Shown here: positions 25,722 through 37,192 of the stretch, piece after piece | How positions within the stretch are numbered: position 1 is the first letter of the stretch | Layout: every line of letters starts with the position of its first letter | NCBI GenBank assembly: GCA_905181785.1 | Contig: CAJIZC010000005.1 | Location: forward strand, 86,538 to 150,537 | Length of the DNA: 64,000 nt | Direction: 5' to 3' | DNA from: an uncultured Candidatus Poseidoniales archaeon | GTDB lineage: Archaea; Thermoplasmatota; Poseidoniia; Poseidoniales; Poseidoniaceae | The notes under the pieces: model-generated | Seen by the model: the letters and a program-made list of their open reading frames with translations, nothing else | What the model was told of the DNA's origin: nothing | Database searches by the model: none | Made by a program: the position numbers and the translations under genes

Positions 25722-25809
25722 CTGTACCCCGGCTCGATTGTTCAAAGACCGGTGCTGTTTGGTTCAACAAGGGGAAGTCTCTTTGAGAGTAGACACGCCC
25801 GCATTAAGC

Positions 25810-27780
25810 ATGGAGAAGCAACGTTTCGCCCAGACATCAATCGCATTCACGGTCATCATCCTGTTCTTGATGATGGCTGCGTCAAGTATGATCACAGGAA
25901 ATTCAACCATGATCGAATCCTCTGAAGCACCGACGAGCGCCCGTCAGGGCAGCCTTGATGTCGATTGCAGTGGTTACAAATTCGAAGATTTATTCGATTA
26001 CAACTACGCTGCCTTCGACATCAACATTGGCGAAGATTGGGCCACTGGACAAATGAGCGCTGTGGCTTTTGTCAACGGAAGCAATTCCGCAATTGTTCGA
26101 GAAAACCTCGATGAGCTGTTCGATGGCACCCCCGGCGGTAACAACTCTTGGATGAGCACGGATGAACGTGAGGCTGTGCGAGCCATTGGACCGGAATGCA
26201 TTGCTGACATGGACACGCGAATCGGCATGAGGGAGGGCTTGCCCCACCGTGGTGGCGTCGATTGGAACGATTTGGAATTCGTCAAGGATGGCATTTCGCT
26301 CGATGAAGTGAACCTTGTTCCTTCCAACCACGACGAAGAACGCGATTGCCAAGACCTCCTCGCTTCATCCGATTGCAAGGAAGTGCCAGTCACCATTACC
26401 GATGATTTGCAAATACACATGTTCACGAAAGAAGACGAAACTCACAATGTTCGCTTTGATCAACTTCCCAACAGTGGGGCATCAAACTTCACCCTCGCTC
26501 TCAACGTGACCAACATGAGCAACGCTGGCTTGGTCCTCACGTTCCCGCAACTGCAAGGATTGCGCTTGGTCAATTCTTCAATTCAAGATGACAACGCAGA
26601 AAGCACCGCTATGCCGCTTCCAGAACCACAGTACCTCCCTGATGGACGGTTGAGGGTCATTCAAGAGGTCAGTTATGCCGCAAACGAATACCCGATTCTT
26701 CGCAACTTGTTCTTAGATTTCACAACCATGGCACCTGAAACGAATGAAATCCCAGAATGGACTGCTGATGCCCCTGTTGACGGAACAGTAATTCCCTTTA
26801 GCGCCGAAACACGGGATGTTGTGGAAGGCGAAATCACTGAACTTTGGGCAACCGACGACAGCGGATGGGCAATCGATTGCGTATTTGCGAACCAAGAATG
26901 GGTTGGACAGTGGACCACTGGATTGGATGAAGAGGGGAGCCTCTTCCTCGACGGCCCTGACGACGTGGCACCAGACGCTCAAATCCAAGTTGAATGCAGC
27001 GTTGTGGATCCATTCGGAGCGTCTTCTATTGAAACTCGAAACTGGACCTTTGCTCAACCCTTTACCTCTGAAGCAACCATTTCTGAATCTGGAGATGCTC
27101 TTGAATTTACGGTCACACCTACGGGTGTTGTGAGCGAAATCTCAATCAGCGCACATGCTCACCAAACAGCAACAATGGGTGAAATGAGGATGGCGACCGT
27201 TGCCGGTGAAGCATCGATGCTCGCCCTTCCTTTGGATGGATTGGCACCTGGGCCAGTTATGATCATGGGCCATGCTGAATCAAACGGCATGCTCGACTAC
27301 GCATTCATGCTTGACTTCAACTTGGAAAAAGCCAGCGCACCTCCGGTGATTGAACTCGAAGTGAACCTCGACGGCACCAACGCCACATGGGATGCAAGTT
27401 ACCTCAAGTTCACCCTTCAAGGCAAGGTCTTGGACCCTGACGGTGAAGGCGTTGAAATGGCCCTTTCGCTGTGTGGTTATTCCACCAACGACTTTGTCCG
27501 ATCCGGTGTCGTGTGGGAAATTGATGTCAACATTGTTTCCTGTTCATCCCAAAACCCACCTGTCACAATCTACGACATAACCCTCATTGCAACAGACGAT
27601 TCCGGTACCATTGCCACCATGCAAGTGCAGGTTCCAGACCCATATGCAAGCACTGAGGAACCGGTCAACGATGAGGACGAAGTCACTGTCGAAGAAGGCT
27701 TGCCTGCAGTTTCCCTGCTCGCCACATTGTCCGTGGCTCTGCTCGGTGCTGCCGTGGTAAACAATCGAAAAAAGCAGTGA
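25810..27780 (+). CDS. Secreted, membrane-anchored surface protein
   Basis: A 656-residue protein. An N-terminal signal segment (SIAFTVIILFLMMAASSMI) is followed by a long Asp/Glu/Asn-rich extracellular region with paired Cys and many N-x-S/T sites (possible N-glycosylation). It ends in a C-terminal hydrophobic anchor (VSLLATLSVALLGAAVV) with a basic tail (NNRKKQ). The middle has beta-rich Ig/PKD-like stretches. ATG at 25810 is chosen because it directly precedes the signal sequence. It follows the ABC exporter pair by 88 bp. Function unknown. Confidence 0.75.
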   Translation: MEKQRFAQTSIAFTVIILFLMMAASSMITGNSTMIESSEAPTSARQGSLDVDCSGYKFEDLFDYNYAAFDINIGEDWATGQMSAVAFVNGSNSAIVRENLDELFDGTPGGNNSWMSTDEREAVRAIGPECIADMDTRIGMREGLPHRGGVDWNDLEFVKDGISLDEVNLVPSNHDEERDCQDLLASSDCKEVPVTITDDLQIHMFTKEDETHNVRFDQLPNSGASNFTLALNVTNMSNAGLVLTFPQLQGLRLVNSSIQDDNAESTAMPLPEPQYLPDGRLRVIQEVSYAANEYPILRNLFLDFTTMAPETNEIPEWTADAPVDGTVIPFSAETRDVVEGEITELWATDDSGWAIDCVFANQEWVGQWTTGLDEEGSLFLDGPDDVAPDAQIQVECSVVDPFGASSIETRNWTFAQPFTSEATISESGDALEFTVTPTGVVSEISISAHAHQTATMGEMRMATVAGEASMLALPLDGLAPGPVMIMGHAESNGMLDYAFMLDFNLEKASAPPVIELEVNLDGTNATWDASYLKFTLQGKVLDPDGEGVEMALSLCGYSTNDFVRSGVVWEIDVNIVSCSSQNPPVTIYDITLIATDDSGTIATMQVQVPDPYASTEEPVNDEDEVTVEEGLPAVSLLATLSVALLGAAVVNNRKKQ

Positions 27781-27840
27781 ATGCCGCTACCGGCACCCTC
27801 AAGAGGGAACGGTTGGCCCCCACAAACTGAGAGTGAGCAT

Positions 27841-29130
27841 ATGTTTGCAGGCACCGTCCAGTCGTTGAGCCACGAAGGTGGGCTCTTAGTGTCCTTTACC
27901 GGCTCCTCTCCAGCTTTAGAATCAATCATTGTCAACCTCGAAACTGGTGATTACATCGGTAAGGTTGACGCTGTGCTTGGCAGCACGAGTGCCCCTCTTG
28001 CACACGTTGCTCACTTGGACAGAAAACTCGACATCCCTGCCTTGGTCGGCATTGAAGTCAACATCCGAGCAAAAAAGGTTCGTGAAGAGCGAAAATTTGG
28101 CGAACGGGGCAACGATCGACAAGACAGAGGACGAAATGATCGTGGCGGCCGATTTGAACACAACGACCGCGGCGGACGCTTCGAGCGAAATGACCGCGGT
28201 GGTCGCCCAGACCGAAACGACCGTTCCAACGGTGGCGATTGGGACTGCCCCAAATGCCGAAACAACAACTTCGCTTTCCGACACGAATGCAACCGATGTG
28301 GCGAGCCACGCGGCAACGGTGGCGGAGGACGTTCCAACGACCGTGGATTCCAAGGTCGCGAACAACGGGCACCTCGATTTGAGCGAAACGATCGTCAAAA
28401 CAACCGCATGGATGGCGATTGGGATTGCCCAAAATGCCACAATGATAACTTCGCTTGGCGAACCGAATGCAATAAGTGCGGCGCACCAAAGGCAGGCGGC
28501 GGTCAAGGACGGCCACCCCGCAGAGACGACCGAAGGTCGTTCAACGACCGTGACAATCGAGGTGGCGACCGACGAGGTGGCGACCGACGAGGTGGCGACC
28601 GACGAGGTGGAGAAACATTCAACGACAACGATTGGGATTGCCCTCAATGCAACAACTCCAATTTCGCATTCAGACAAGAATGCAACCGATGTGGAGTTCC
28701 ACGAAGCGGTGGCCAAAGTCGGCCACCACGACGCGATGACCGACGAGGTGGCGATTCACGAGGTGGAAGCAGTTACGGTGGTGGCGGCCAACGAGGCGGC
28801 GACCGACGAGGTGGCGATTCACGAGGCGGAAGCAGTTACGGTGGCGGAGGCCAACGAGGCGGCGACCGACGAGGCGGCGATTCACGAGGCGGAAGCAGTT
28901 ACGGTGGCGGAGGCCAGCGAGGTGGCGACCGCAGCGGTTCCGATGACCGCCGTGGTGGAGACCGACAAGTTCGCAGTAACTTCGGTGGCGACCGAGGCGG
29001 GAACGATGGACGTCGTCCACCAAGAGAGCCACGAGAACCACGAGAATTTCGCAAAGCCCGAGGCAAGAGTTCGGGCCATGCCCACAACCGCCCACCACGC
29101 GACTTGATGGGACGAGATCGAGAAGATTGA
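27841..29130 (+). CDS. gar1: Gar1-like H/ACA RNP protein with three RanBP2-type zinc fingers and RGG repeats
   Basis: A 429-residue protein. Residues 1-80 align well by eye with archaeal Gar1, the H/ACA RNP protein that assists pseudouridylation: GTVQSLSHEGGLLV, then GDYIGKVDAVLGSTSAPLAHV, then LVGIEVNIRAKK. Three RanBP2-type fingers follow with C-x2-C-x10-C-x2-C spacing: Cys 136/139/150/153, 196/199/210/213 and 267/270/281/284, each starting DWDCP. Arg/Gly/Asp-rich linkers join them, and a tail of 21-residue RGG repeats ends the protein. Archaeal Gar1 is normally ~100 residues without RGG. Start ATG 27841 removes a spurious 20-residue extension. Confidence 0.85.
   Translation: MFAGTVQSLSHEGGLLVSFTGSSPALESIIVNLETGDYIGKVDAVLGSTSAPLAHVAHLDRKLDIPALVGIEVNIRAKKVREERKFGERGNDRQDRGRNDRGGRFEHNDRGGRFERNDRGGRPDRNDRSNGGDWDCPKCRNNNFAFRHECNRCGEPRGNGGGGRSNDRGFQGREQRAPRFERNDRQNNRMDGDWDCPKCHNDNFAWRTECNKCGAPKAGGGQGRPPRRDDRRSFNDRDNRGGDRRGGDRRGGDRRGGETFNDNDWDCPQCNNSNFAFRQECNRCGVPRSGGQSRPPRRDDRRGGDSRGGSSYGGGGQRGGDRRGGDSRGGSSYGGGGQRGGDRRGGDSRGGSSYGGGGQRGGDRSGSDDRRGGDRQVRSNFGGDRGGNDGRRPPREPREPREFRKARGKSSGHAHNRPPRDLMGRDRED
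28738..28926 (+). repeat. Three tandem 63-bp repeats in the Gar1-like gene
   Basis: Three consecutive 63-bp units (28738-28800, 28801-28863, 28864-28926) encode near-identical 21-residue blocks of the form DRRGGDSRGGSSYGGGGQRG. Only a few third-position changes separate the units, implying recent slippage or gene-conversion homogenisation. Confidence 0.9.
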
Positions 29131-29158: not shown

Positions 29159-30193
29159 ATGGGCGCTGAAGAACACTACCTTGACGCTGTTGAAGCCTAT
29201 GATGAAGGTGACTTGGAAGCAGCATACGCTTCGGCAAAACTTGCTGTCAAAGAAGACCCACAGCATGTAGATGCATTGCAATTATGCGCAGAGGCAGCAC
29301 TCCCTCCGAAGGGAGAAAGTCCGACCCTCAAGCAAGCCGCACAGTCCCTTTCCGCTGTCAAGAAGATCATCGCAATCGAACCAGAAAGAACCGCAATGTG
29401 GTTTCTTGGCGGCCGATTGCTAAGCGATGAACTGGGCTTGCTGGATGATGCCCTCGACTGGTGGCAACAACTTCGCCACCACATGCCCGATGAAGTTACA
29501 CCGCTGGTTGAGCAAGCAACCTTGCTTGCAGACATGGGGTTGTACACTGAAGCTCGCTACAGACTCGAAGCAATCACTGAAGAGAACATGGACGTCAGCG
29601 GCCAGCAATACGCTAAGATTCAACAATTACATTCGATGGTTATGTCCGCTTCAATGCAAGACCAAGCGGAATTTTTCAAACCATGGGAACGGCACCACAA
29701 TGGATGGGGTGCCATCGAAATGAAGATGCGAAAACCTCCAGTCTCGGAGAGTTTCCTGTTCATGACAACGACCGTTCCTGTTCTTTTGCTTGAGGTCGTT
29801 TTTTCCAACAGGTTTGTCGAGCAAGGGTGGGGCGGTTTTTGCCTCACCACCTTGCTGATTTTCGGTACGGTACTGTTTGGTATGCGGTTCAGCCGTAAGA
29901 TCTTCAGAAGGGTGAATCGACCTGCATTCAACCTCTTGCGCGCAATGAATTTCGAAGCCTCGTCTGGCTATGTTGTGGTTTCTGAAGAAATACGAACTTC
30001 GGTGCTCTATGTCTACATCATGCAGCGAAAACCCAAAGCATGGCAGGAACGTATGCTCAAGATCATCCAAGATAAAACCAAATTGCCTGGTGGATGGAAA
30101 CAGACGCTTCCGGATTTCGACTCCCACATTGAGGAGATTGGCCATATTGAAGACGCCGATGATGAGCAATTCGAGCCCTTTGAAGAAGAGTGA
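29159..30193 (+). CDS. TPR-repeat membrane protein
   Basis: A 344-residue protein. Residues 1-165 are helical with TPR-like pairs (EEHYLDAVEAYDEGDLEAAY, PQHVDALQLCAEAAL, PLVEQATLLADMGLYTEARY). Two hydrophobic segments follow at about 200-245 (LFMTTTVPVLLLEVVF and GFCLTTLLIFGTVLFGM). The C-terminal ~90 residues are cytoplasmic and end acidic. Probably a scaffold placing TPRs at the membrane. It begins 28 bp after the Gar1-like gene, so likely cotranscribed. Partner unknown. Confidence 0.75.
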   Translation: MGAEEHYLDAVEAYDEGDLEAAYASAKLAVKEDPQHVDALQLCAEAALPPKGESPTLKQAAQSLSAVKKIIAIEPERTAMWFLGGRLLSDELGLLDDALDWWQQLRHHMPDEVTPLVEQATLLADMGLYTEARYRLEAITEENMDVSGQQYAKIQQLHSMVMSASMQDQAEFFKPWERHHNGWGAIEMKMRKPPVSESFLFMTTTVPVLLLEVVFSNRFVEQGWGGFCLTTLLIFGTVLFGMRFSRKIFRRVNRPAFNLLRAMNFEASSGYVVVSEEIRTSVLYVYIMQRKPKAWQERMLKIIQDKTKLPGGWKQTLPDFDSHIEEIGHIEDADDEQFEPFEEE

Positions 30194-30499: not shown

Positions 30500-33400
30500 T
30501 CATTGCTGCGTTTGAGCGTATTGAGCGGCGTATTGTTGTGCATACGTCGCTGCGGTTGCTTCATCGTAGCCTTGGGCAACAAACTGCTGGTAATACTGCT
30601 GGTACACTGCATCGTCAGCCACAGGAGCGGCCGCCGCTGCTGCTGGAGCTGCTGCTCCAGCCGCTTGGGCAGCGTACTGCTGTGCGTAAGTTCGAGCCGT
30701 CTCTTCAGGGTAGCCTTGAGCGATGAGTTGCTGAACGTATTGTTCAGTCGCATCGAGTTGAGCGGATCCGTATCCTGCAGAACTTGCTGCAAAGTCCTTG
30801 ATTGTGTCATCGCCACCGGCGCCGCCCTTTCGAAGGAAGACGAGGGTGAGAAGAATGATGATGATCAAGGCGCCTGCTGCAATACCGATTGTCATGGTAT
30901 CAACGCCGCTTTGAGTGCCGTCTGAGTCACCAGATTGTGCAGGGGCTTTCCACTCACCGTTTTCGTAGGTCCAAGCCCCACTCCATTGGCATTCACCATC
31001 TGCGTCAAACACGAACTCTCCGCCTGCTGTAAGTGCGCCTGCGTCTGCTTCCAAGCCTTGACAGGCTGGAAGTTGAATTTCGATCCACTTGATTGTGACC
31101 CATCGTTCGTCATCGCCTTCGTAAATCTTGATGAAGATTCGTTGGCTTTGTGACTTGTTGGTGTACATGTCTTCTAGGGAAAGGGTGAGGTCAAAAGTTT
31201 CAGCATCACCTGTCTTGTTTGACCGGTCCCAGGCTCCAATGAGTCCGAGGTTGTACTTGTCCACTGCACTTGCATCGAAATCAGATTCGACGAAGGCTGC
31301 TTCGACGTAAACGTCGCCGTTTTCTGCACCCGAGAGGACTGTACCAGAGATGGTCACTGTGTCTGAGGCAACACGGGAAGCGTTGAGGGAAGCGTCCAAT
31401 TGAACAACCGGTTCTTCATCGCCAAAGCCGTCAGGAACAACGACAAAGTACATTCGATACTTTTCCGAGAACTTGCCTGCTTTGTCATAAACAATTAATT
31501 CGATACGGATTTGATTCTCCGTTGTACCGCTTGGGTCCACTGTCACGTTGCGGAAGGTGTAAGCCCATGCGCCGTCGCTTGCTGCCGTTTGCTCGAAGGT
31601 GTGACCGTCGAGGCTGAACGAGTCGTCGCCGTACGGTGCATCGAAGAGAACCTTCCATTCATAGGTTTCAATTCCGCTGCCTTCCAGTGCGTCAAGGTCG
31701 GTTGAGTTGCTTGCATCAAAGTGCACTGTAACTTCACCATCTTCATCGAGAATAATTCGGTTGACAGACCATTCCGTGTTTGAGACGGTCTTCGTTCCAA
31801 CGAATTCGACAAGATCGGTGTATTCTTCACGCATGTCAATCATTGCTTCAGCAGTTGGTCGATATTCGTCAGCGTAAACGTCGTTGGTTTCGACGGTCAC
31901 CTCAATCACTCGAGCGTGCCCTGCAGCGTCGTGGAGCATCAGAGTGATGGTCCACTGCTCACCTTGAGCGCAGCCCGTAGCGGAAGAGAGGTCAGCCTTA
32001 CAGAAGTTCATCACAGGCATAGCATCGGTGTTGACTGCGGTCATTCCAGTGGCCATGGTCGATCCGTCCCACGAGGTTGGGCCAGAAACAATCCAGTCGG
32101 TGCTGAGGGTTTCTGTTGTCGTGGTCGTGTAGGAGAACGTCAAATCAGCGTCGCTCTTCATGTAACGAAGTTCGTAGCCACCGGTGCTTGGGTTGATGCC
32201 AGGCACTTGGTCGTTGATTTTCAAATCAAGACCGTTTCCAAGCGTTCCGAAGCCTTCAGGGTACGGAGTCACTTGGTAGGCAAGCATGTTTCCGAGAAGC
32301 GGGAGTGTGGTGCTGTCAGCTCGCTCTGAGTGGGTTGAAACGTCCATGGTGGAAACTATGAGTCCACCGGAGTAGTAACTGCACACGCCGAGGATGGTGT
32401 CTTGATTGTCTGCTCCGTCGCGGATTAACCGCTGGAAGTAACCACCGTCTTCCATGTAACCGTTGCAGGTCACTGGAACGTTGTTGGCGCTGACCGATTT
32501 TGTGTTCAGCACCGCTTGAGCAACGGTTGAATCTGCATCAAAGCCTTGGAAGGCGTTGATGTCAACGTTGTCCATCAATGGGTGGTATGGGTCGGCAAAG
32601 TCAGTTCCTGCAAAGTCAATTTGAGACTCTGGTGTGTTGCGGCTTTGCACGTCCAATCCGAATGGCAAACGTCCAGCGAGGCCTTGGTCGACACCGTAAA
32701 TCTGGCTTCCTTGAGGACCAAGGTGGGCCTGCACTGTACCACCGGAGGACATGAAGCCTTCCAAGGTGGTCTTGTGTGCGGTGGAGCCCAACTTCTGGTA
32801 GTAGCCACGGCCACCGTTTTCGATGTCCTTTGCTGCGATGTCATCTTGCCAAGGCAGGACGATCTTGTCGTAGTGTGTGAACCATCCAGCGTCGAGGTAT
32901 GTGTCCCAGTTGTTGATGGTGTACTGGGTGTAACTCATGCCAAGGATGTTCAGATCTTCCTTGATGGCGTTGGTTCGAACCGAGGTGTCGGAAAGGATTG
33001 CAACATCCACGTGGTCAGCAAAGGTTGCGTGGAAGTATCGCACGTTACCTGAAGGGTTACCGTTTGCAAGTTCAGCATCGAAGCTGATGTTGTAGGTGTG
33101 GCCGTCCATCCAGCCGTTCCAGGGCGTGAAGGTAAGATCGATCTTTTGTTGGGAGTCAAGCGACTGTGATGGCCCTGCGGTTGTGGTGTGAGCCATGCTT
33201 TGGGTCGTTTCATCATAGATGTTCATGTTGAACACATAATCACCAGCAAGCACACCGTTGGTGGCTTGTAGGCCCCAGTCGTGGGTGTAAGAACTGTCAA
33301 TTGGCATTACACATTCCAAAATCTGGTCGTTCAAGCAGGTAAGTGTGTTTGGCTTTCCAAGCGTGATGTCAACGGATTCAACATTGAAGATCACTCGCTC

Positions 33401-36400
33401 GATGTTGTTGGATGTGGATATTTCTTGGTCGTTAAACCAAGGCTTACCAGCAGTGGTGTTGTCGAAGATTGTTTCCACTTCAATCATGTACACTCCAGAG
33501 AAGAACTCGTGGCTTGCGACAATCTCAGTTGCGGATTGTTCTGCGTCAACGTTGGTTCGGGAGATGGTGTATGCGTTGTCTTCGATGAAGGTGAACTCTT
33601 GCAGCGAGATGTTGTTGAAAGCAACACCCTTGAATCCGTCATTGATACCGTTTCGTCCATCATCATCGGACTGGAATTCGAAGTTAATGTCCACGACGGA
33701 GCCGGAGAGTGACATGCACTCATAGCCCCAGTTGATTGAACTGGCGTCCGAAGTGTTGAGCACGTACAAGTGAGTCAAGTCAATCGATGTTGTAGCAACA
33801 AGATCGTTGGTGTTGAAGAAGACGTTGTAGTTTCCACCTGTTCCGTCAGTGCTGGAGTCATCACCAATGTAGGCGATTTCTGCGTTGTCAATCGGTTCGG
33901 AAGCGTTGACAATGTTGTCCCCGTTCTCATCAATTTGGCAGGTACCGTCTTCGTTGTAGTCGTTCCATTGACCGACCAAAACGCCAGAGTAGGTTGCGCC
34001 ATCCCGAAGGATGTCGAGGGTCATTGCAGCGTAATCATTGACATCGACGATTGAAGTGCCATCTGAGTCGATTCCATAGAAGGTATCTGCATAGTACTCA
34101 AAGTTCAAGGAGACGAAGTCGCCGCTCATCGAGGTCAAGTCAATGTCTGGGATGGTCAGCGTTTCGTTGGCCCATGCGTCACCATAGCCGTTGGCGCCGG
34201 TATCACACGGATGGCCGAACCAGTAGGCGTTGTTGTTGAAAATTAGATCTTGGCAGGTTGCTTCGTTGTAGATTACACCCTTGGGATTTGCGCTTTCTTC
34301 GTATCGGTAACCATTGGCACCGCCTTCAAAGTCTTCAGCACACAATGCGGTTGGTGTACCACAATAGACATCGGATGGTGTAGCGGAGAACACGGTTGCC
34401 TTCACATCGAAGTCCACTTCGGTGTTTCCGTAGTTGTTGGTTGCCACTTCAATGTCAAAGACACCTTCAGCGTACAATCCACCGGGATTGAAGTATTCAA
34501 TGCCCTCGACCATTGGGTCGTAGAGGTTGAAAGGTGTGATGTATCCAACGAGTTCATCGTTCTGGGCTTGCTCATCCCAACTGTTCGCAGAAAGGCTTGC
34601 AGAGATGCGATAAATTGTATCATTGAGCAAATCTGCGGTGATTGAAGCGGTGTATTCTTGACCTGGGCCAAGGTTGTTGAGGTTGATGTTGGTTTGTTGA
34701 ACTTGCGGGTTGGCCAAGAAAGCAGTGTTCTGCTTGGTAATGGTCAAATTATCCACTGCGAATCCGTCTCGACCGGTCCAACGGCTTTCATTGTCATCGG
34801 AAATCGATCCGGTGAATCCTGTGCGGAATCTGAAACGAACATCGACGGTTTCCCCAGCCCATGGACTGAGATCGAACGAACCGACGCCTTCTTCGGTGAA
34901 GTTGTTCCAGCCGTAGTAGGTGCCAGCGGAGTAGATACCGTAGTAGTAGACGCCTTCAGCAACGCCACCAAGGGCTTGCTTGTATTGACGGTCAAGGTCG
35001 AATCCGCCCCAAATTGAGTCACCTGAAGCGCATGCTCCGGAGATGTAGGCTTCTTGTGGGCAGGAGAGAATGTCCCATCCAGATTCTTCGCTGCCGATTT
35101 CAATCATGGCCACGTCATCCCAGACATCGCCTGCGAGGTAGTTTCCAGTTTGGTCAAGGCTACCGAGCACACCGTGACCGAGGTGCTGGAACAGTTCGAC
35201 GCTCATGAATGCGCGATCTGAGCCGGTCAGATCGACGTCTTCGAGGACCATAGCATCGTCCCAGTTCTTGTCGTATCCAGACCATAGGTCGCCGGAAGAG
35301 TTCGTCTTGTAGTGCCCAGCCCACATGAAGTCAGTTGGGTTCTGGTAGTTGGCAGAAACGTTTGGATCGTTGTTTCCATCGCTTGCCCCTTGGGAACTGT
35401 TGGTTTCTTCATGCCACTTGGTTGCTTGATCGATGTACTCTTCGAATGCCCAGTTGCAGCCTGTGCCACAGCCCGTCTTGACTTCTGGATTGTCCCAATC
35501 CATTTGGTACACGCTGCTGTTGGTTGAACTTGCTTCATCAACAACCTTCAATTCAAGATCGAGGGTGGCTGATTGTCCGTTGAGGACGTCCATACCAGTG
35601 TTGGTAACCGTGACGTTGATGTCACGAGTTCCTTCTCCAACGATGCCGAAGAATCTGTCAGTTGGACTGATTTCTAACGAGGTTACAGCGAGATCCTTGC
35701 TGTCCATTTCCACCACGGTGATGGTGTCGTATTGACCTTCCCAACCAAAGTTGTCGACCCAGCTTCCAAAGTCGTAACTGGTGTGGCCAACAACAATGTC
35801 GAGGGCGGAATTTGAAGGTCCTGCAAGTTGACCAACTTCGACCATGCTCGGTCGGCGCCCAGCCTCGTATGAGAGCGGCGTCAAGTGGGTGCCGCTTCCA
35901 TCTGAGAGCGTTACTTGGACGGTCGTAGGGAAGTTGAGGAAGAAGTTCGATGTTGAACCGCCAGCAGAGTCACTGCTGTTTTGTTGGTAGGCAACGGTTG
36001 GGTTGACGAAATCAGGCTCACCATCGTTGTTGAGGTCAGCCACAGTAACGGAATACGAAATGTAAGGTCCGAAGTAGGCTAGAGTGGGTGATGTCCAGGT
36101 CCCAACAGCAGAAGAAGTCACGAAACTCACGTTTTCGACGTTGCCATCGTTCACAACCAAAGCATCGATTGCGCCGTTGTTGTCGATATCGGCGATGTCA
36201 AAATCATTGGTAAACGGTACGGCCATATTGATCAGGCTGGTACCGGTTTGCGGGTTTGCTTGGTTGTAGGTGAACGTTGCAGGATAGGTGTTGGTCAAGC
36301 AAGAGTATTCAATGATGGTGACGTTGTCGTCGTTGCCAGGGTTTGTGGTTTGACCTGTAGCATAGTCAACGCCCTCTGAGCGAAGAACCCAGATGTCGTC

Positions 36401-37156
36401 ATCCGTGCACGTGCCGCTGAGGCCACCTGTTTCAGTTTCGCCCCAATCGCCAACTTCGAGGCTTCGGTAAGCGTTTTGGTTCGAAGGACCGAGTGATGTA
36501 ATCATGCCTTGTGTGCTGGAGGTGATCGGCCCTCGGTAAGTCACGACGCGTTGATTTGAAACGTCATTGAGCAGGTCGAGGATGTAAATATCATCGTTCC
36601 CGTCTTGGTTTGCGTCGCCAACTGCGAGGTCCCAAGCCCAGAAGTGAGTGTAGCGCTGGCCGATGTTCCACGAGTTGTCATCGCAGCCTGCGTTTTCGAT
36701 GATGGTGACGTTGCCCGGTTCACCTGCTGGTGCGCCGTTGTCATCGGTCTTGAAGGGGTTGTTTCGCTGGAAAATCACAATGTCGTCTGCCCCGTCACCG
36801 GTGAACTCACCGACTTCGATAAATTGGACATTGGAAAATTCATCCCAATCTGCGTTTCGGCTTTGGTTCTCCGAGACCCAAATGTCCTGACGCTCGCTGA
36901 AATCCCCGTTCCCATCGTTCCAAAGAACGCTGATGGTGTGGGTGCCTTCAGTTGCCACGGCCATGTCGTTGAAACCATCGCAGTTGAAATCGCCAATAGC
37001 GACGTCCAACGGGTCACGGTTTGTTGTGTAAGACCGGGCGATAGAGGCGCTTGCAGTGGTGGCAAGAGCGGCGGTGGTCGACAAAACCATCAGCATGACG
37101 AGAAACATACTGAGGGCGCGGCTGTTTTTGTGGTTGTTTTTGGAGAACATCAACAT
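30500..37156 (-). CDS. Giant FG-GAP/VCBS surface protein with cytoplasmic repeat tail
   Basis: A 2218-residue surface protein. A signal segment (SMFLVMLMVLSTTAALATTA) comes first, then FG-GAP/VCBS-like beta-propeller repeats over roughly residues 45-440, with DxDxDG-type Ca2+ loops such as IGDFNCDGFND and VGDANQDGNDD. Next come CARDB-like and MAM/immune-inhibitor-A-like domains (WTGRDGFAVDNLTI), a GATase-like alpha/beta segment near VDVAILSDTSVRTNAI, and Ig-like domains. One membrane helix (GIAAGALIIIILLTLVFL) precedes a 110-residue cytoplasmic tail with two copies of a QQxxAQGYxEExAxTYAQQYAAQ pattern. Start ATG 37156 fits a TATA element; 37150 is possible. Confidence 0.88.
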   Translation of the reverse strand: MLMFSKNNHKNSRALSMFLVMLMVLSTTAALATTASASIARSYTTNRDPLDVAIGDFNCDGFNDMAVATEGTHTISVLWNDGNGDFSERQDIWVSENQSRNADWDEFSNVQFIEVGEFTGDGADDIVIFQRNNPFKTDDNGAPAGEPGNVTIIENAGCDDNSWNIGQRYTHFWAWDLAVGDANQDGNDDIYILDLLNDVSNQRVVTYRGPITSSTQGMITSLGPSNQNAYRSLEVGDWGETETGGLSGTCTDDDIWVLRSEGVDYATGQTTNPGNDDNVTIIEYSCLTNTYPATFTYNQANPQTGTSLINMAVPFTNDFDIADIDNNGAIDALVVNDGNVENVSFVTSSAVGTWTSPTLAYFGPYISYSVTVADLNNDGEPDFVNPTVAYQQNSSDSAGGSTSNFFLNFPTTVQVTLSDGSGTHLTPLSYEAGRRPSMVEVGQLAGPSNSALDIVVGHTSYDFGSWVDNFGWEGQYDTITVVEMDSKDLAVTSLEISPTDRFFGIVGEGTRDINVTVTNTGMDVLNGQSATLDLELKVVDEASSTNSSVYQMDWDNPEVKTGCGTGCNWAFEEYIDQATKWHEETNSSQGASDGNNDPNVSANYQNPTDFMWAGHYKTNSSGDLWSGYDKNWDDAMVLEDVDLTGSDRAFMSVELFQHLGHGVLGSLDQTGNYLAGDVWDDVAMIEIGSEESGWDILSCPQEAYISGACASGDSIWGGFDLDRQYKQALGGVAEGVYYYGIYSAGTYYGWNNFTEEGVGSFDLSPWAGETVDVRFRFRTGFTGSISDDNESRWTGRDGFAVDNLTITKQNTAFLANPQVQQTNINLNNLGPGQEYTASITADLLNDTIYRISASLSANSWDEQAQNDELVGYITPFNLYDPMVEGIEYFNPGGLYAEGVFDIEVATNNYGNTEVDFDVKATVFSATPSDVYCGTPTALCAEDFEGGANGYRYEESANPKGVIYNEATCQDLIFNNNAYWFGHPCDTGANGYGDAWANETLTIPDIDLTSMSGDFVSLNFEYYADTFYGIDSDGTSIVDVNDYAAMTLDILRDGATYSGVLVGQWNDYNEDGTCQIDENGDNIVNASEPIDNAEIAYIGDDSSTDGTGGNYNVFFNTNDLVATTSIDLTHLYVLNTSDASSINWGYECMSLSGSVVDINFEFQSDDDGRNGINDGFKGVAFNNISLQEFTFIEDNAYTISRTNVDAEQSATEIVASHEFFSGVYMIEVETIFDNTTAGKPWFNDQEISTSNNIERVIFNVESVDITLGKPNTLTCLNDQILECVMPIDSSYTHDWGLQATNGVLAGDYVFNMNIYDETTQSMAHTTTAGPSQSLDSQQKIDLTFTPWNGWMDGHTYNISFDAELANGNPSGNVRYFHATFADHVDVAILSDTSVRTNAIKEDLNILGMSYTQYTINNWDTYLDAGWFTHYDKIVLPWQDDIAAKDIENGGRGYYQKLGSTAHKTTLEGFMSSGGTVQAHLGPQGSQIYGVDQGLAGRLPFGLDVQSRNTPESQIDFAGTDFADPYHPLMDNVDINAFQGFDADSTVAQAVLNTKSVSANNVPVTCNGYMEDGGYFQRLIRDGADNQDTILGVCSYYSGGLIVSTMDVSTHSERADSTTLPLLGNMLAYQVTPYPEGFGTLGNGLDLKINDQVPGINPSTGGYELRYMKSDADLTFSYTTTTTETLSTDWIVSGPTSWDGSTMATGMTAVNTDAMPVMNFCKADLSSATGCAQGEQWTITLMLHDAAGHARVIEVTVETNDVYADEYRPTAEAMIDMREEYTDLVEFVGTKTVSNTEWSVNRIILDEDGEVTVHFDASNSTDLDALEGSGIETYEWKVLFDAPYGDDSFSLDGHTFEQTAASDGAWAYTFRNVTVDPSGTTENQIRIELIVYDKAGKFSEKYRMYFVVVPDGFGDEEPVVQLDASLNASRVASDTVTISGTVLSGAENGDVYVEAAFVESDFDASAVDKYNLGLIGAWDRSNKTGDAETFDLTLSLEDMYTNKSQSQRIFIKIYEGDDERWVTIKWIEIQLPACQGLEADAGALTAGGEFVFDADGECQWSGAWTYENGEWKAPAQSGDSDGTQSGVDTMTIGIAAGALIIIILLTLVFLRKGGAGGDDTIKDFAASSAGYGSAQLDATEQYVQQLIAQGYPEETARTYAQQYAAQAAGAAAPAAAAAAPVADDAVYQQYYQQFVAQGYDEATAATYAQQYAAQYAQTQQ

Positions 37157-37181
37157 CACTGCTTCGGCCACTGCCCGTTGC

Positions 37182-37192
37182 ACTTTAATTCC
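37182..37192 (-). promoter_or_regulatory. TATA-like box of the giant surface protein gene
   Basis: Minus-strand GGAATTAAAGT centred about 31 nt before the ATG at 37156 fits a leaderless archaeal promoter. A second A/T-rich block (GAAATTTTAAATC, near 37255-37267) lies further upstream and could be an alternative promoter. Confidence 0.4.

Follow-up and report, generated by a model that had tools for sequence, protein, structure and literature searches.

Gar1 proteins and RanBP2-type zinc fingers

Gar1 is a core component of the H/ACA RNP, which converts uridine in RNA to pseudouridine. Archaeal Gar1, as known from Pyrococcus furiosus (PDB 2hvy and 2ey4; Pfam family PF04410), has chains of 74-104 aa, which are too short to accommodate zinc fingers or a long tail. 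Archaeal Gar1 governs the thumb loop of the pseudouridine synthase subunit Cbf5 and the release of the product (PMC8096250; PMC10811338). According to PMC8096250, Gar1 stands alone among the H/ACA proteins in making no contact with the guide RNA. The account in PMC8096250 assigns RGG domains to eukaryotic GAR1 and none to archaeal Gar1, and calls the role of these extensions elusive; in the reconstituted eukaryotic snR81 RNP removal of the GAR1 RGG domains altered turnover in a hairpin-dependent manner, and its authors infer contact between the GAR1 RGG and the substrate RNA (PMC8096250).

Zinc fingers of the RanBP2 type that belong to the GGU-reading class are found in FUS, EWS and TAF15 (the FET proteins) and in ZRANB2. 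The finger of FUS is flanked by RGG segments, and the FET proteins carry an RRM beside their RanBP2 finger; the RanBP2-type fingers of Nup153, TAB2 and RNF31 bind protein. Reading of GGU is attributed to residues D4, N14, R19, R20 and N24 together with a stacking tryptophan, R19 being replaced by W in FUS and EWS with retention of specificity, while loss of N14/N24 is linked to loss of U reading and a finger carrying K and S in place of R19/R20 showed no RNA binding; for two-finger arrays of ZRANB2, EWS and FUS a KD of 0.2-0.3 µM for (GGU)x2 was measured by ITC (PMC6384913).

Here we describe a gene from a draft genome of an uncultured Candidatus Poseidoniales archaeon, contained in a 64-kb window (the whole stretch of DNA that was analysed), which joins a Gar1 barrel to RanBP2-type fingers and an RGG-rich tail, and which makes the Poseidoniales Gar1 an exception to the archaeal Gar1 without RGG of the contrast drawn in PMC8096250. 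The parts are already known, and what is new is that they occur together on the one Gar1 that searches detect in an order of marine archaea. No report of a Gar1-RanBP2 fusion was found in an open literature of 5.39 million papers, a body with most subscription papers outside it. Machine annotation has partly recognised the fusion, since the JGI annotation names P0030, P0152 and P0183 'rRNA processing protein Gar1' and P0195 'rRNA processing protein Gar1/predicted nucleic-acid-binding Zn-ribbon protein'; the NCBI names among those examined are hypothetical or zinc finger protein.

Gene model and domain architecture

The gar1 reading frame runs on the + strand from an ATG at 27841 to a stop codon ending at 29130 and encodes 429 aa (Table 1), exactly the extent given by an earlier model reading of the DNA that used no database searches (the sequence-only reading). 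An alternative in-frame ATG at 27781 directly abuts the stop codon of the upstream gene. The start at 27841, the methionine of the MF... sequence, is preferred because 79 of 128 orthologous loci offer no other start codon back to the in-frame stop and because the near-identical database protein P0002 begins at this methionine. In the full-length fold model the barrel and the three fingers form four ordered islands (block means 80-90), with the rest mostly below 50.

Table 1. Coordinates of gar1, its parts and its flanking genes in the window.
Feature	Position	Strand	Evidence
Upstream gene: 680 aa, hydrophobic segment at the C-terminus, no Pfam family above the cut-off	25738..27780	+	
gar1, full length: Gar1 barrel with three RanBP2 fingers and R/G/D-rich tail predicted to be disordered, 429 aa	27841..29130	+	
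Gar1 beta-barrel, residues 1-80	27841..28080	+	
R/G/D/N-rich linkers and tail flanking the fingers	28084..29046	+	pLDDT < 50 outside fingers
RanBP2 zinc finger 1, DWDCPKCRNNNFAFRHECNRCG	28237..28302	+	Pfam; FUS 6g99_B E 4.8e-6; pLDDT 82-89
RanBP2 zinc finger 2, DWDCPKCHNDNFAWRTECNKCG	28417..28482	+	Pfam, motif search, fold model
15-bp tandem repeat, 3.5 copies, codes for RRGGD units	28558..28610	+	
RanBP2 zinc finger 3, DWDCPQCNNSNFAFRQECNRCG	28630..28695	+	Pfam, motif search, fold model
63-bp tandem repeat, 3.1 copies, codes for RGG/SYGG units	28738..28931	+	
Conserved C-terminal motif FRKARGKSSGHAHNRPPRDLMG	29047..29112	+	
Downstream gene: 344 aa, TPR-like (TPR_19 below cut-off), with hydrophobic segments	29159..30193	+	

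A barrel 99% identical to that of the window protein is present in a Candidatus Poseidoniaceae archaeon (L188). P0002 has 440 aa and differs from the window protein in the number of tail repeats, and P0001 has the first ~110 residues in common with it, followed by a different tail and fingers; possible readings of these tail differences (28558-28931) are repeat-driven variation, recombination or misassembly. The archaeal gene is also held by a record titled Rhodobiaceae bacterium (L245, CALDQY010000298.1), which is probably mislabelled or a mixed bin.

Identity of the Gar1 barrel

Assignment of residues 1-80 to Gar1, made in the sequence-only reading, did not carry at the Pfam cut-off for PF04410, where the single window sequence scores 12.5 bits for the full protein and 16.8 for the domain against 29.3, but was borne out by profiles and structure, which are required to see the homology. 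That a lone sequence should reach the PF04410 gathering score is no defining trait of Gar1: the cut-off is passed in one of the 145 genomes of the order and in two genomes of a control set of 14 that includes four archaea, and L173, an ordinary archaeal Gar1, scores 26.3 bits. PF04410 matches 45 of 50 members of the barrel family at E <= 0.1 (best 1.8e-7), the top four matches in a profile search of PDB sequences with the barrel (hmmsearch) were archaeal Gar1, and ranks 1-11 of a structure search with the predicted barrel were all H/ACA entries. Comparison by hhalign of the barrel profile (alignment A1, 50 of 75 representatives drawn from 126 domains) with 14 ordinary Gar1s (alignment A4) gave 98.5% and an E-value of 3e-15, with a mild circularity in that the 14 rows had been found using A1; 13 of them match PF04410 independently of A1. 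The A4 rows are 14 of 15 outgroup Gar1s, L179 being left out, and the 15 were taken from among 38 genomes outside the order having a match. Judged by profiles and predicted structure, residues 1-80 form a Gar1 barrel.

Another fold for these residues was rejected on the strength of the structure searches and hhalign. Naf1, a Gar1-like assembly factor, was rejected in favour of Gar1, its structural score being lower than that of Gar1 (12.1), and was absent among the PDB sequence matches of the barrel. A match of one barrel sequence to PEP-utilizers (E 0.005) was taken as a chance match because two of the 50 members show it, against the 45 that match Gar1.

Regarding the GPVxxP[YF] loop, which is typical of archaeal Gar1 without being a defining trait, the G, P, V and second P are invariant in the 14 A4 rows and the loop is altered in the Poseidoniales protein. 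Its first proline is missing in all 66 sequences of family f1 and in 35 of the 62 of family f2, and is kept in the other 27 (26 by pattern and L098 by eye). With this proline lost, the contact with Cbf5 may differ.

Gar1 copy number and H/ACA partners

At E <= 10 PF04410 has a single match in the source genome (a 1.66-Mb draft of 31 contigs), namely the fusion gene. At E <= 1 it has matches in 124 of the order's 145 genomes; 123 have one at the gar1 locus, and G066 only away from it. The 13 PF04410 rows off the locus are partial, have E > 0.1 and fall in reading frames 34-991 aa long. A separate canonical gar1, the short gene whose loss the sequence-only reading had envisaged, was found with PF04410 neither in the source genome nor in the order's 145 genomes, so that the outcome named there as refuting was not seen. 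The fusion gene is the only Gar1 homologue detected in the source genome, although at a completeness of 79.75% this draft could lack a second gar1.

The barrel was found in 132 of the 145 genomes and in all 21 genera of the order, and Cbf5 in 133 of the 145; G030 and G138 have neither, so the gaps look like draft incompleteness. In the source genome, Cbf5 scores over the equivalog cut-off, Nop10 over the Pfam cut-off (the 44-aa piece scanned falls under that of NCBIfam), and L7Ae has an E-value of 9e-34, under the equivalog cut-off. A search of the 64-kb window with Rfam, in which two tRNAs matched, gave no H/ACA guide RNA.

These data bear on whether the Gar1 fold may have left Cbf5 for a different RNA-binding function, such as one in ribosome assembly or in the binding of mRNA, which we regard as quite unlikely. 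Absence of the loop proline throughout f1, the single genome of 145 in which the Pfam Gar1 cut-off is passed, and conserved neighbours that comprise a surface-type protein and a TPR-like gene and no H/ACA genes would all be consistent with such a change, but ordinary archaeal Gar1s often miss the same cut-off, f2 orthologues in the same syntenic place retain the proline in 27 of 62 cases, and the protein is the sole detected Gar1 homologue alongside an intact Cbf5.

RanBP2-type zinc fingers

Three W-x-C-x2-C-x10-C-x2-C fingers occupy residues 133-154, 193-214 and 264-285, and both their number and their zinc spacing agree with the sequence-only reading. The Pfam RanBP2 family matches across the three stretches with an E-value of 1.2e-23, over its cut-off, and the finger motif was found nowhere else in the six frames of the window and in none of 20,000 shuffles of the protein; no other RanBP2 gene over the cut-off was detected in the source genome. 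The nearest solved relatives of finger 1 are FUS (6g99_B, E 4.8e-6), ZRANB2, TAF15, RBM10 and RBM5, with weaker matches (E >= 0.007) to the finger entries of Nup153, TAB2 and RNF31.

Finger positions were mapped by alignment with ZRANB2, taking the numbering of PMC6384913 to include a two-residue insert. All three window fingers keep D4, N14, an aromatic residue at position 17, R20 and N24, and have F or W at the R19 position, W being the residue of FUS and EWS. Among 143 fingers of f1, D4, aromatic 17 and R20 are present in all 143 and N14 and N24 in 136 each, with F (104), R (21), W (11), K (5) or S (2) at the R19 position, and the C-x2-C fingers of f2 keep D4, N14, aromatic 17, R20 and N24 in 34 of 34 cases each. 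The remaining 27 of the 61 f2 fingers have a C-x4-C second pair with K at R20 and S or N at R19 (seen in L073, L079, L088, L101 and others); these are predicted to be weak in guanine reading because the finger with K and S at R19/R20 in PMC6384913 did not bind RNA, and they are possibly sub-functionalised.

For the window fingers, residue conservation and nearest relatives support a position closest to the RNA-binding FUS/ZRANB2/TAF15 class, the GGU type to which they had been assigned from the sequence. It is highly improbable that they bind protein rather than RNA in the manner of the RanBP2-type fingers of Nup153, TAB2 and RNF31, for although the fold is shared with those entries the FUS, ZRANB2, TAF15, RBM10 and RBM5 fingers are closer and D4, N14, R20 and N24 are conserved. 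Very unlikely, too, is a targeting mode in which the fingers would choose the substrate and Cbf5-Nop10-Gar1 would modify, without any guide, mRNA or tRNA uridines that are flanked by GGU; conservation of the GGU-reading residues and the Rfam result for the window would suit it, yet L7Ae, Cbf5 and Nop10 are all present in the source genome and each finger recognises about three bases.

RGG tail and C-terminal motif

The window protein has 18 RGG between 28141 and 29001, the first at residue 101, and none of 5,000 tail shuffles attains this number, in accordance with the RGG repeats that had been read behind the barrel. The RGGDR pattern occurs in the source genome only in the gar1 fusion gene, six times. 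Complete orthologues contain between 0 and 29 RGG (with medians of 6 for f1 and 2 for f2), the tail net charge has a median of +30 in both families (range -6 to +38 in f1 and +18 to +41 in f2) and the tail length has a median of 291 aa in complete f1 proteins.

The description of these segments as eukaryote-like RGG domains, made in the same reading, holds in part. As in eukaryotic GAR1, the barrel is followed by an RGG-rich C-terminal extension, and an IGKVDxVLG segment resembles VGKVDEILG of yeast GAR1. The term is nevertheless loose, because the RGG number varies, because none is N-terminal (the Poseidoniales protein starts with the barrel, whereas PMC8096250 places RGG at both ends of eukaryotic GAR1) and because two other Gar1s of the phylum, L178 and L187, also have basic R/G/P-rich tails. 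The zinc fingers are an addition relative to eukaryotic GAR1, and the likeness of the tail is likely to be convergent.

Unlike the FET proteins, the window protein has its fingers fused to a Gar1 barrel and lacks an RRM (none in a Pfam scan at E <= 1). The pairing of a RanBP2 finger with RGG that is known from FUS occurs here in an archaeon, and this resemblance, the multivalency (40 of the 41 complete f1 proteins have one to four fingers, together with the long tail) and the predicted disorder of the tail could point to a condensate scaffold, in which fingers and RGG would mainly gather pre-rRNA and H/ACA, perhaps also other, RNPs into a nucleolus-like body and tethering would be secondary. 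We consider such a main function unlikely, as the RGG number falls to 0 in some proteins, some genera are finger-less, and neither an RRM (Pfam) nor a SYGQ-type domain is apparent in the sequence.

Near the C-terminus, 30 of 31 complete orthologues from genera g1, g2, g3 and g8, at loci between L003 and L058, carry H[AT]HN, the finger-less g8 included, against 0 of 56 from other genera, and GHAHN is invariant in all 24 rows of alignment A3, which come from g1-g3 only; the motif is therefore among the most conserved parts of the tail. No PDB relatives of it were found. GHAHN is possibly a docking peptide for a further partner, or a metal site. Genus g4 has another conserved C-terminal ending, KRVGGPR...KGHH.

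Distribution and synteny across the order

The locus search gave 134 matches in 132 genomes, of which 130 loci (L002-L131) were examined, the rows G098, G115, G052 and G070:C25 being left out; as g18 is outside this set, 20 genera were examined. A reading frame was obtained for 128 loci from 127 genomes (L117 and L131 were missed by tblastn at 1e-3), and with 34 frames running off a contig end, eight containing N and one of them both, 87 are complete. The gene is likely to be cut at contig ends so often because of its repeats, and as a result the full-length gene is probably under-represented in databases.

Allowing C-x2-4-C in the second pair, one to four fingers per protein were counted in 40 of 41 complete f1 proteins and in 25 of 46 complete f2 proteins, and at least one finger was found in 15 of the 20 genera (cut frames included), which is the outcome of the survey of Poseidoniales genomes for the fusion that the sequence-only reading had suggested. 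Canonical fingers are missing in 22 of the 87 complete orthologues, so the arm is dispensable in parts of the order; 18 of these proteins are finger-less (eight in g13, nine in g17 and one in g8), four in g11 have a degenerate ribbon, and g21 is represented by one cut frame without a finger. Of five genomes sampled from family f3, which belongs to the same class, one matched, with an 82-aa frame without fingers (L176). Presence in both f1 and f2 suggests an ancestral fusion with later losses.

A same-strand match to the upstream gene ends <= 1.1 kb 5' of gar1 in 127 of the 128 loci; in L069 the nearest one ends 2.0 kb 5' of it. The TPR-like downstream gene accompanies gar1 in 92 of the 128 loci; 87 have it within 600 bp and five (g17) further off, and gar1 is cut by a contig end at 34 of the 36 loci without it. 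With the same neighbours around them, the finger-bearing and finger-less versions are one gene.

In a sample of 194 genomes of the phylum, a finger that passes the Pfam cut-off occurs outside the order in G148 alone (G148:C2:2900-2983, in a 465-aa frame), and 20 genomes outside the order have weaker finger matches.

Proposed role as an RNA-tethering arm

We lean, with slightly more confidence than doubt, towards an RNA-tethering role for the fingers and RGG tail, which would form an arm that keeps the Cbf5 complex on single-stranded RNA containing GGU, most likely pre-rRNA. Like other Gar1s, the barrel would dock beside the thumb loop on the Cbf5 catalytic domain and aid substrate turnover, while the fingers, on flexible linkers, would bind several GGU/GGN sites of one RNA with avidity and the RGG segments would contribute non-specific affinity. 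Such an arm would raise the local substrate concentration and keep the RNP on long substrates, staying on one transcript between modification sites, with the C-terminal GHAHN as a putative extra docking point for a partner. The nearest experimental parallel is the snR81 RNP without GAR1 RGG domains (PMC8096250).

In a bolder and rather doubtful form, this Gar1 would read RNA sequence itself through a FUS/ZRANB2-like GGU-reading, condensate-prone arm that brings H/ACA RNPs to pre-rRNA (or beyond guide targets) in a nucleolus-like body, having arisen independently of the eukaryotic GAR1 RGG. The order offers a natural system for the effect of RGG and RNA-binding extensions on RNA-guided pseudouridylation, in which finger-less orthologues are natural controls.

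Genomic surroundings

A scan for promoters and terminators gave two promoter-like sites against 0.7 expected and three terminator-like sites against 2.6, and was given no weight because the promoter model is bacterial. Between 23881 and 30193, genes for an ABC ATPase, an ABC-2 permease, the 680-aa probable surface protein, gar1 and the TPR-like protein lie on one strand, and it is odd that the 680-aa gene has stayed beside an RNP gene so consistently. On the - strand, positions 30500-37183 contain a frame of 2227 aa that looks like a giant surface protein: it opens with a signal-like sequence, and at its C-terminal end a hydrophobic segment precedes an A/Q-rich tail.
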